From contig JAQCEJ010000005.1 in NCBI GenBank assembly GCA_027618475.1, positions 1 through 64,000 of the forward strand: a stretch of 64,000 nt of DNA, read 5' to 3'. The position numbers and the translations under genes were made by a program. Of the stretch, positions 33,263-36,461 are shown one piece after another. Origin of the DNA: Planctomycetota bacterium. Its GTDB lineage: Bacteria; Planctomycetota; Planctomycetia; Planctomycetales; Planctomycetaceae. Numbering within the stretch: the first letter of the stretch is position 1; each line of letters opens with the position of its first letter. The notes beneath the pieces are model-generated. The model saw only the letters and a list, made by a program, of their open reading frames with translations. It ran no database searches and had not been told where the DNA came from.

Positions 33263-33486
33263 AATGTTTGCCTTTTGAGGGAGTGATTGTCGTTCATATC
33301 ATTTTGCTCTGCCAAAAGGAGGAATGCAATGACGACGCTGATTCAGTGCGATCTTTAGCCGAGACAGGTGCATCCCCATTCATCGCCCTCCCGCGCCGTT
33401 CCGTTGCACAATCTCCAGCGATACGCTATCAACGGATTTCACGTACGCTCACCTTCCATCTGACATTCAGTACCACGAGGATCACG

Positions 33487-34002
33487 ATGAAATATCCCGT
33501 CTTGTTCGCGTTGATGACCGCTTTGTTCTGGGGATTGTATGGGCCGACGCTGGGACAGGCGCGATCGGGATTGGGTGGGAGTCCGTTCAAGCCGTATGTC
33601 GCCATCGGGATTGCCTACCTGATCTGGGGTGTTCTCGGAGGTGTCGGCGGAATGATGTACCGGGGTGACGATTTTTCGTTCTCGGGAGCAGGGGCCATCT
33701 GGGGATTTGCCGCCGGTTCTCTCGGTGCGTGGGGTGCACTGACATTAACGCTCGCCATGTTCACTGGCGGCGGTGCGATGCCGCATATCGTGATGCCGAT
33801 CGTCTTCGGCGGCGCGGTCACCGTGCAGGCGCTCGTCAGCACGTGGATGTATCGCACCACTGCTAACCCGATGATGTGGGTCGGTGTGATCGGCATGGGG
33901 ATCTGCATTGTAATCGTGGCAGCGAACACGCCGCATCATGCGCCGAAGCCGAAAGCGGCGGAGGGAGAACCATCCGCCGCGACGACTTCATCGCATACGT
34001 AG
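33487..34002 (+). CDS. Small multi-spanning membrane protein (DMT/EamA-like)
   Basis: 171 residues from ATG 33487, preceded by GAGGATCACG; the frame further upstream lacks protein features. Five hydrophobic helices are visible: YPVLFALMTALFWGLYGPTL, YVAIGIAYLIWGVLGGVGGMM, AGAIWGFAAGSLGAWGALTL, IVMPIVFGGAVTVQALVSTW and WVGVIGMGICIVIVAAN (each trimmed). The first helix with FWGLYGPTL resembles the N-terminal half of EamA-type transporters, so it may be a half-size transporter acting as a dimer. The C-terminus is a Pro/Ala/Ser tail of about 25 residues. No neighbour shares its direction within 1 kb. Substrate unknown. Confidence 0.75.
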   Translation: MKYPVLFALMTALFWGLYGPTLGQARSGLGGSPFKPYVAIGIAYLIWGVLGGVGGMMYRGDDFSFSGAGAIWGFAAGSLGAWGALTLTLAMFTGGGAMPHIVMPIVFGGAVTVQALVSTWMYRTTANPMMWVGVIGMGICIVIVAANTPHHAPKPKAAEGEPSAATTSSHT

Positions 34003-34258: not shown

Positions 34259-34852
34259 TTAACCACATCTATTGGCAGCGCTGCAATCGGGGCCGCAGTC
34301 GGGGTTGACGGACTTGTACTCTAAGATGTTCCCTCGCGCATCCATTTGAAACTGGCAACATTCGCGTAACATCGCTTCCAGTTTTCTGCGTCCGCGCTGA
34401 ATTTGCGACTTGACGCCCGAGAGAGAAATCGACTCGCGTTCGGCAATCTCCGCCTGAGATTTTCCCTCGAGTTCGTACAGCGAAACAGCACGCTTTTGTG
34501 CTTCCGGCAAATGGTCGATCAAAGTGGACAGGCAACCCGCAACGTCTCTATTGACGTTCTCCTCGCGAGACGGTTCGGCCACCGAAATTGTCGATGCATC
34601 GCCAGTCGGCACCTCTTGCTTCTTGCGGAAATGGTCGGCGACCGCGTTGCGCGTGATTTGAAATACCCATGATTCCATGCGCTCGACTCGACGAAGGGTA
34701 TCGAAATTCTGATGGATGCGGAGGAACACGGTTTGCAAAATGTCATCGACATCCGCCGCCGACGTCACTCGAGACCGAATGAACTGGCGCAGCCGATCGC
34801 TCAGCTCGCGCCAGATCTGTTCGGTCGTCACCTTTGGCTGAGTCTGTTTCAT
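34259..34852 (-). CDS. sigZ: ECF sigma factor, SigZ-like, with Cys-containing C-terminus
   Basis: 197 residues from ATG 34852. Region 2 spans about 10-80 (WRELSDRLRQFIRSR, DVDDILQTVFLRIHQNFDTL, MESWVFQITRNAVADHFRK) and region 4 about 110-160 (LPEAQKRAVSLYELEGKSQAEIAE, LSGVKSQIQRGRRKLEAML). After region 4 the chain continues as in SigZ proteins: ECCQFQMDARGNILEY and then CGPDC and a final Cys, giving five Cys in the last 35 residues that could bind metal. No anti-sigma factor with a membrane domain is adjacent; instead the start codon overlaps the stop of a 49-residue Cys-rich peptide gene (TAATG), a strong coupling signal. A longer frame reading upstream through that peptide is not the real start. 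Target genes are not evident. Confidence 0.9.
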   Translation of the reverse strand: MKQTQPKVTTEQIWRELSDRLRQFIRSRVTSAADVDDILQTVFLRIHQNFDTLRRVERMESWVFQITRNAVADHFRKKQEVPTGDASTISVAEPSREENVNRDVAGCLSTLIDHLPEAQKRAVSLYELEGKSQAEIAERESISLSGVKSQIQRGRRKLEAMLRECCQFQMDARGNILEYKSVNPDCGPDCSAANRCG

Positions 34853-35001
34853 TACTGAGAGCAACCTGAGTTCGCGGATTGCGGGTTCACCGTGTCGCCG
34901 CAACCACATTGTCCTGAACAACAACAGCAACAGCAACACGTCCCACAACATTGCGGGGGGGTGGCGTGTTTCGATTCGCTGCTTCTGGTTGGCTCGGTCA
35001 T
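34852..35001 (-). CDS. 49-residue cysteine-rich micropeptide coupled to the SigZ-like sigma factor
   Basis: Short gene whose reading frame differs from the longer open frame covering it. The ATG at 35001 is preceded by AGGAGG with five bases of spacing (AGGAGGATAAAATG), the best ribosome site in the region, and the TAA overlaps the sigma factor ATG by one base. The product has 12 Cys in 49 residues: CC at 18-19, an unbroken run of seven Cys at 22-28, then Cys32, Cys34 and Cys47, with a Ser/Thr/Pro-rich polar N-terminus and no hydrophobic helix. It could bind Cu, Zn, Cd, As or an Fe-S cluster like a metallothionein, or sense redox state. I recognise no family. Translational coupling suggests it acts with the sigma factor, perhaps as anti-sigma factor or sensor; this is inference. 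Confidence 0.72.
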   Translation of the reverse strand: MTEPTRSSESKHATPPQCCGTCCCCCCCSGQCGCGDTVNPQSANSGCSQ

Positions 35002-35225
35002 TTTATCCTCCTCTCAAGAGATAGTGAAATGGGCAATTGCATGCCTTCTGACAACATAGACGCACCACCACCGAAAAAGACGCAACCCGACCGCCGGGCA
35101 ACCGGAGGAACCCCGCTATGAAAGCTCCGGCATGGTTGAGAATCGGCAGGGTACCTCCTAGCATGATTGACTGACTGGTTCGCTCTTGAACATTGCTCTG
35201 ATTTCCTCTCCCTGAAAGAACAATC

Positions 35226-36461
35226 ATGCTGTCTCTTCGCCTGAATTCTCTGCTGGCTTCGACTCTGTTGCTTTCGGCGTTCGCCTCGCTCGATGCCGCT
35301 GAGCCCGATGCGGTCATCACCAGCGGCGGACTGAAATTCGCCGAGCGGTTGATGTGGCCCGATGGGGGGTATGTTTACGGGATCACGGCGACTGATATCG
35401 ACGGCGACGGTGATCTCGATTTTTCGAGTGCCGGGGTGCATACCGATATGCTCCTCTGGCATGAAAACGACGGCGAAGAGAACTTCACAAAGCACATCAT
35501 CTGCGACAACGAACCGGGGTATCTCGAACGTCATGCGTTCGGTGACATCAACGGGGACGGCACGCTCGATGTCGTGATGGTCAAAAACAAAATCGGCCAT
35601 CTCGTCTGGTGGGAAAACAACGGCACACCGGGTGATGGCAAGCTCTGGGGACGCCATGTCATCACCACCGACTTCATGCGGGCCTATGATGTGGCGCTGA
35701 TGGATCTCGACGATGACGGGGATCTCGACGTCGCCGCCTCGGCTTACACCGGCGATTGTTTCTCGTGGTTCGAGAACCCCGGTCCGAAAGGTTTTGACAA
35801 CGAATGGAAGCAATACAAATTCGACAGCGATAAAGAGTTCGCCAATACCCGAACGGTCGCGTTTGCTGATTTCAATGGCGACGGCAAACCCGATCTGCTC
35901 GGCACGGGAACCTACGGCAACAAGACGCTGTGGTACGAAAACACCGGCAAGGCAGGAGTGAAGAAATTCAGCCGTAACATCATCGATGACAAACTGCTGA
36001 TGCCTGCGCACGGACATCCGGTCGATATGGACGATGACGGCGATATCGACATCGTCATGGCGGGGGGAATGCGTGTCTCCACGACCGAAAAAGAACAATC
36101 GCATCAGGCGGTCTGGTATGAAAACGTCGGCTCACCCGGCAGAGGTAGCGAATGGACCAGACACTTTGTCGGGCACCTCGACTTTGGTCTCGAAGCGGTC
36201 GTCGGCGATCTCGACGGCGATGGTGACATCGATGTGATCGCTACGGGATGCGACGGCGGACAGCCGGGCGTCGGCGAAGTGTCGTGGTTCGAGAACACCG
36301 GCGACCTGAAGGGGGAATGGAAGAAGCACGTTTTGAGGATGTATCCGCGCGCCGCGCAGGTCATCGTGATGGACATGGACGAAGACGGCAATCTCGACAT
36401 CGCCGCGAGTTCAGAAGCGGGGACGTTTTACTGGTGGCGGAATCTGGGGTCTGCAAAATGA
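35226..36461 (+). CDS. Secreted FG-GAP/VCBS-repeat seven-bladed propeller protein
   Basis: 411 residues. Signal peptide 1-23 (LASTLLLSAFASLDA). Seven repeats of about 50 residues each hold a Ca2+-binding DxDxDGxxD loop: TDIDGDGDLDF, GDINGDGTLDV, MDLDDDGDLDV, ADFNGDGKPDL, VDMDDDGDIDI, GDLDGDGDIDV and MDMDEDGNLDI, each followed by a strand and then a WxExx motif (WHENDG, WWENNG, WFENPG, WYENTG, WYENVG, WFENTG). This matches FG-GAP/VCBS propellers used for binding at the cell surface; no catalytic residues are expected. It is divergent from the Cys-peptide/sigma operon. Seven repeats would make one closed propeller. Confidence 0.93.
   Translation: MLSLRLNSLLASTLLLSAFASLDAAEPDAVITSGGLKFAERLMWPDGGYVYGITATDIDGDGDLDFSSAGVHTDMLLWHENDGEENFTKHIICDNEPGYLERHAFGDINGDGTLDVVMVKNKIGHLVWWENNGTPGDGKLWGRHVITTDFMRAYDVALMDLDDDGDLDVAASAYTGDCFSWFENPGPKGFDNEWKQYKFDSDKEFANTRTVAFADFNGDGKPDLLGTGTYGNKTLWYENTGKAGVKKFSRNIIDDKLLMPAHGHPVDMDDDGDIDIVMAGGMRVSTTEKEQSHQAVWYENVGSPGRGSEWTRHFVGHLDFGLEAVVGDLDGDGDIDVIATGCDGGQPGVGEVSWFENTGDLKGEWKKHVLRMYPRAAQVIVMDMDEDGNLDIAASSEAGTFYWWRNLGSAK

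Follow-up and report, generated by a model that had tools for sequence, protein, structure and literature searches.

The micropeptide and its sigma factor gene

Does a short and extremely cysteine-rich reading frame lying directly upstream of an ECF sigma factor gene encode a real product, and does that product sense a signal for the sigma factor or respond to it? The question is raised by two adjoining minus-strand genes in the 64,000-nucleotide stretch of planctomycete DNA analysed here (the window). A reading of the sequence alone had described a 49-residue frame with 12 Cys, seven of them consecutive, a good ribosome binding site before it and a base shared between its stop codon and the start of a SigZ-like sigma factor gene, and each of these features was found in the sequence as described. 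The frame (34852..35001, minus strand) encodes MTEPTRSSESKHATPPQCCGTCCCCCCCSGQCGCGDTVNPQSANSGCSQ, in which residues 22-28 are all Cys. Its Shine-Dalgarno sequence AGGAGG (35007..35012, minus strand) lies 5 nt before the ATG at 35001, and the relatives G038 and G127, described below, have AAAGGAGAAAAAATG at the equivalent place. The TAA stop codon (34852..34854, minus strand) and the sigma factor ATG have A34852 in common (TAATG), so that the two genes overlap by one base. With a Cys fraction of 0.245 the micropeptide ranks first among the 674 window ORFs of 30-200 aa; in 60 simulated 64-kb sequences with the dinucleotide make-up of the window, the Cys fraction did not exceed 0.219 and the longest Cys run was 4. 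Searches of Pfam (to E <= 1) and NCBIfam found no family for the peptide.

The neighbours of the pair look unrelated to it. The divergent gene on its 5' side (35226-36461, plus strand) encodes a repeat-rich product that we take to be FG-GAP-like, and a membrane protein gene (~33400-34002, plus strand) converges on the pair from downstream. Since the flanking genes are divergent upstream and convergent downstream, the transcript probably consists of the peptide and the sigma factor alone.

The downstream gene (34259..34852, minus strand) encodes a 197-aa SigZ-type ECF sigma factor. It scores 180 bits against NCBIfam TIGR02959 (cut-off 168.65), with residues 14-181 aligned to positions 1-167 of the 170 in the model, which bears out the SigZ-like identity proposed earlier; against PRK09637 it falls just below the threshold (206 against 212). 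The Pfam domains found are PF04542 (Sigma70_r2) and PF08281 (Sigma70_r4_2), corresponding to regions 2 and 4, with no further large domain. The protein ends in RECC...CGPDC, the Cys-containing tail that had been noted before. Among 40 aligned SigZ-type proteins Cys166 is present in all 40, Cys165 in 35 and Cys107 in 27, and a C-terminal Cys pair is present in most. An AlphaFold model of the sigma factor (mean pLDDT 84.8, pTM 0.54) places Cys165-Cys166 (34355..34360, minus strand) where the last helix of sigma4 meets a short predicted beta-hairpin, while the CGPDC tail (34283..34297, minus strand) belongs to an end predicted to be disordered (pLDDT < 50 for residues 188-197). When the genome contigs were searched with the sigma protein for related loci, only generic ECF factors with 19-29% identity were found.

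Conservation of the peptide and of the sigma factor was searched in 170 genomes of the family. Close sigma factor orthologues occur in G038 (67%) and G127 (70%) only, both from one other genus, and the search for the peptide beside them, which the sequence-only reading had proposed, gave clear matches: each genome encodes a 49-residue Cys peptide, with 13 and 14 Cys respectively and 42-46% identity to the window peptide. Aligning the three peptides shows 10 of the 12 window Cys to be invariant, versus 10 of its 37 other residues; the Cys run of both relatives is CCCxCCC. A profile of the three peptides matched with E < 1e-20 in these three genomes alone, the next best match having an E value of 0.003, and the Cys peptide thus occurs only where the orthologous SigZ occurs among the 170 genomes. 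The expectation that the Cys and the junction would be kept in relatives held for the Cys and for the close adjacency of the genes, but not for the exact TAATG overlap: in G038 and G127 a TAG stop codon ends the peptide 2 nt before the sigma factor ATG (stop-CA-ATG). The pN/pS ratio of the peptide between G038 and G127 is 0.43, based on 12 differences, too few to be decisive. Together these comparisons support the micropeptide as a conserved, Cys-selected product tied to the SigZ factor.

The longer frame that was said to hide the peptide is also present, giving a 230-aa sigma protein from an ATG at 34951, but this is an over-extension. In both G038 and G127 a stop codon closes the sigma frame seven codons 5' of the conserved ATG, and the start is therefore placed at 34852.

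A promoter-like element and the genes linked to SigZ

The upstream regions of the three peptide genes have in common TTGCGTCTTTTTCG-N9-CGTCT, located 84-85 nt before the peptide ATG. In the window this is part of a bipartite element, TGCGTCTTTT-N12-CGTCT (35058..35084, minus strand), with a -35-like half at 35075-35084 and a -10-like half at 35058-35062; ECF promoters are expected to consist of two halves 16 bp apart. The degenerate pattern TGCGTCYNTT-N12-CGTCT was searched in 28 SigZ-bearing and 28 SigZ-less genomes, with a reversed control. Exact sites occur in 14 of the SigZ-bearing genomes, 15 sites altogether, each of them at most 1.5 kb from a SigZ gene, whereas the SigZ-less genomes contain 4 scattered exact sites, about the level of the reversed control. 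With a tighter pattern, a set of 392 genomes drawn evenly from the phylum yielded 18 exact copies, of which 13 have a SigZ gene no more than 1.5 kb away. TGC, TC and CGTC are invariant across 28 compiled sites, a description only, because the sites were picked by pattern. The copy at 35058-35084 is the sole exact one in the 5.93-Mb window genome. Allowing one mismatch gave 9 sites there versus 11 in the reversed control and no coherent set of genes, so there is no sign of a wider SigZ regulon in this genome. A looser pattern, TTGCGTC-N15-17-CGTCT, was non-specific (7 versus 4 sites in the window genome) and was discarded. From the co-occurrence of element and SigZ genes we infer that the element is the target of SigZ and serves as an autoregulatory promoter.

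SigZ loci selected solely by sigma protein similarity commonly have Cys-rich products encoded on the upstream side. The gene immediately 5' of the sigma gene encodes two or more CC pairs at 23 of 35 SigZ loci, as opposed to 0 of 24 loci of other ECF sigma factors in the family of the window organism; the 35 loci include a few close relatives, and the counts are not fully independent. A SigZ remnant in G031 (L007), N-terminally truncated to residues 101-189 and apparently a decayed copy, was left out of these counts. The upstream products are diverse. Free Cys peptides are found at L003, L038, L043, L048 and L050, and Cys peptides with an N-terminus that appears hydrophobic or lipoprotein-like by eye at L046, L054, L057, L060, L061 and L063. 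Other upstream genes encode ArsI/CadI proteins with CC tails and ArsM-type methyltransferases, which score over their cut-offs where tested, as well as arsenate-reductase-like proteins, with scores below cut-off, and DUF2703 proteins with CC tails. ArsI/CadI genes stand behind the element in G040 and G023 and ArsM genes in G101 and G435, all over curated cut-offs, and a DUF2703 gene does so in G385. In G104 the order is SigZ, element, and then a gene for a 37-aa peptide ending in CCCGCCCCGGGCCG. In G375, which gave no SigZ match in the phylum search, the element precedes the gene of a flavoprotein whose N-terminus is extended by CC-CC-CC. As an exception to the arsenic linkage, two SigZ loci of G440 adjoin HMA/heavy-metal genes. 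The micropeptide finding is real and well supported, and it is broader than first described.

The ArsI/CadI-type glyoxalases 5' of SigZ at L005, L040, L041, L052 and L056 have extra C-terminal CC-x3-CC tails. These tails are perhaps arsenic-capturing extensions.

SigZ-type genes are also found on plasmids outside the phylum, where the window sigma factor matches 306 plasmid records at 1e-12. Five Rhodococcus plasmids encode a 58-aa CC peptide no more than ~300 bp from SigZ; in the two plasmids inspected, the peptide gene and the SigZ gene have one element or near variant each, and the peptide gene is transcribed divergently. On a Hymenobacter plasmid the SigZ gene is preceded by a close variant of the element, with ACR3/ArsC nearby. 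On Klebsiella and Citrobacter plasmids TGCATCC-N15-CGTC precedes a permease gene; the Klebsiella permease is ArsP_1, and that of Citrobacter is likened to it by its matching arrangement. A SigZ-type gene also adjoins arsH/arsD/arsA on plasmids of Salmonella and Enterobacter. Those sigma proteins of Klebsiella and Salmonella that were tested score below the SigZ cut-off, yet SigZ is their best model. No arsenic genes were found near SigZ in the plasmid regions of Priestia, Vibrio and Rhodococcus DMU1. The related sigma genes in enterobacterial plasmid ars operons are annotated, and we found neither an explanation for them nor a link between SigZ and arsenic in the literature searched; a paper on the Salmonella plasmid pESI (PMC12504007) names the sigma gene only as one entry in a list of arsenic genes. 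In the Salmonella and Enterobacter plasmid records CP066329.1 (L157) and NZ_CP085751.1 (L158), the SigZ-type gene either has arsH and arsD on its two sides or adjoins arsD and arsA.

The signal and the role of the peptide

The natural reading of the peptide is that it binds a thiophilic metal or metalloid, since its kin occupy arsenic and heavy-metal loci. For the sigma factor, direct sensing of the metal by its own cysteines would be the most economical reading, by analogy with CorE/CorE2 and OrbS, in which C-terminal Cys are known metal sensors. Which metal is concerned is less clear. The SigZ gene or its promoter is linked in relatives to ArsI/CadI, ArsM and plasmid ars operons, and arsenic is the candidate best supported by them; copper or another metal is possible in the window organism. 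A search for two arsenic proteins, the arsenite methyltransferase ArsM and the ACR3 pump, found neither in the window genome or its relatives G038 and G127, which makes arsenic uncertain for this branch. Moreover, no arsenic gene adjoins the peptide/sigma pair in the window genome.

We consider it probable that the operon is a minimal, self-activating homeostat for a thiophilic metal or metalloid, composed of a sensing sigma factor, its own promoter and a metallothionein-like sink peptide. The SigZ-type factor, with RNA polymerase, would transcribe its own operon from TGCGTCTTTT-N12-CGTCT. An on-board metal site would be formed by Cys107, where sigma4 begins, by Cys165-166 behind sigma4 and by the CGPDC tail, and binding of a soft metal or metalloid at this site, for example As(III), Sb(III) or Cu(I), would switch the sigma factor on. 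The first product of the operon would be the 49-residue Cys peptide, which as a sink would capture the inducer and so close a negative feedback loop, while translation of the sigma factor would be coupled to termination at the peptide stop codon.

The sequence-only reading had left two roles for the peptide side by side, that it is a metal buffer and the sigma factor the responder, or that it is itself the sensor or anti-sigma factor. The first is the better fit, because in relatives this position, behind the equivalent promoter-like element, is taken by detoxification enzymes or by CC peptides that seem to be exported, and because the sigma factor has conserved Cys of its own. The second we regard as unlikely. 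A small anti-sigma factor or co-activator, whose Cys cluster on binding metal would release or switch the sigma factor, would agree with the overlapping or adjacent genes and the single inferred transcript, as in many sigma/anti-sigma pairs, and with the Cys-rich segments on both proteins. However, ArsI, ArsM or DUF2703 proteins take over both the position and the promoter of the peptide in relatives, the peptides of different loci have nothing but CC motifs in common, and some of them (L054, L057, L061) begin with signal-peptide-like or lipoprotein-like segments. The Rhodococcus peptide gene is divergently transcribed and has its own element, and the Pfam search of the micropeptide revealed no known anti-sigma domain. 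The replacement by enzymes, the apparent export and the independent transcription in Rhodococcus all argue that the peptide is an output of the system rather than an anti-sigma factor.

It is improbable that the frame acts as a cysteine-responsive translational attenuator, in which a shortage of Cys-tRNA would slow ribosomes on the seven consecutive Cys codons and alter initiation at the overlapping sigma gene. There is a precedent in the mycobacterial polycysteine leader ORFs, characterised as leaderless cysteine attenuators in the work of Canestrari et al. (2020), as cited in PMC9031893; these are likewise short ORFs with consecutive Cys codons directly 5' of the regulated gene. In addition, the third base (TGT/TGC) is identical at all ten conserved Cys codons in the three genomes (34852-35001, L003 and L038), while two-fold codons at conserved sigma residues agree at 55% (post-hoc P ~0.003 for the contrast), and this invariance could reflect a role at the codon level, for example attenuation. 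However, the micropeptide gene differs from the mycobacterial leaders in having a strong Shine-Dalgarno sequence and an inferred leader, so it is not leaderless, and enzymes stand at its position in relatives. The RNA fold near the sigma start is neither unusual nor conserved when compared with shuffled sequences (z = -0.8, 0.4, 0.9 and 0.5). The Cys run of G038 and G127 is interrupted, and other loci have spaced CC pairs, CC on full enzymes or Cys encoded downstream of the sigma gene.

We give equally little credence to a system that senses oxidative or thiol stress (disulfides or electrophiles) instead of a metal, with the Cys peptide as a redox buffer. Vicinal Cys pairs could form disulfides, and thioredoxin-like or flavoprotein genes adjoin the locus in some relatives, but those linked enzymes that bear curated names belong to arsenic or heavy-metal biology (ArsI/CadI, ArsM) and the plasmid SigZ-type genes are in or beside ars operons. 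That no peptide is made, and that the trinucleotide-like stretch arose by chance as a TGY repeat of an untranslated leader, is very hard to reconcile with the retention of the Cys, the 49-codon length, the start, the ribosome site and a near-identical stop position in two other genomes, and with the different Cys-cluster peptides at further SigZ loci.

A wider form of the favoured homeostat reading is put forward tentatively. SigZ-type factors of at least four phyla may constitute a regulon class of their own, with a common TGCGTCC-N15-CGTCT promoter, metalloid sensing by their own Cys, and a set of driven CC-cluster modules. These modules would be free-standing micropeptides or peptides for export, or would be joined to arsenic enzymes as their tails or heads, and the window pair would be the smallest version, a sensor with a dedicated sink peptide alone.

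Comparison with known systems

The window sigma factor resembles the SigZ family (TIGR02959/PRK09637) in its whole-length match, its sigma2-sigma4 core and the CC after sigma4; the promoter, the Cys-cluster partner and the metalloid link proposed here are what differ. No description of a SigZ signal, promoter, regulon or partner was found in the literature searched, and the promoter element, the conserved Cys and the linked genes together suggest all of these except the partner in a testable form. The micropeptide resembles bacterial metallothioneins in being small and very Cys-rich, and in its presumed role as a soft-metal sink. It differs from them in having vicinal Cys runs in place of spaced CxC/CxxC motifs, and in its want of a Pfam or NCBIfam match. 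We know of no documented sink so small with a run of seven Cys.

CorE and CorE2 (formerly ECF44 and ECF238) provide a model for possible sensing by SigZ; they sense metals through C-terminal Cys and Cys in the sigma2-sigma4 linker (PMC8999054). Their linker motif is CXC, whereas the window SigZ has the single Cys107 near the linker, and in place of the Cys-rich C-terminal domain on which the metal response of CorE depends it has the CC and a short tail with a Cys pair; it also scores as SigZ. The CorE section of that paper mentions no cognate Cys peptide. In OrbS of Burkholderia cenocepacia the C-terminal Cys of an ECF sigma factor likewise form an on-board metal sensor, but there Fe(II) inhibits the sigma factor, which serves siderophore genes (PMC9023288). 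The pair would be a variation on a direct-sensing ECF sigma factor joined to a metallothionein-like sink, and not a new category. If the proposal is correct, Cys-cluster micropeptides would be an added class of metalloid sinks, easily missed by gene callers, and the locus would offer a compact sensor-promoter pair for biosensing of the arsenic type.

Two further arrangements were seen among the loci collected. An FAD-dependent oxidoreductase gene stands behind a SigZ-type element in two genomes; the CC-CC-CC extension is part of the protein at L151 (G375), and at L118 (G258) a separate CC peptide gene comes before the oxidoreductase gene. The two SigZ genes of G440 (L126 and L127) are paralogous and are clustered with a second ECF sigma factor and HMA/Cys-rich heavy-metal proteins; these clusters also hold a putative anti-sigma-like protein, and a variant of the element, TGCATCC-N15-CGTCA, sits downstream of SigZ.
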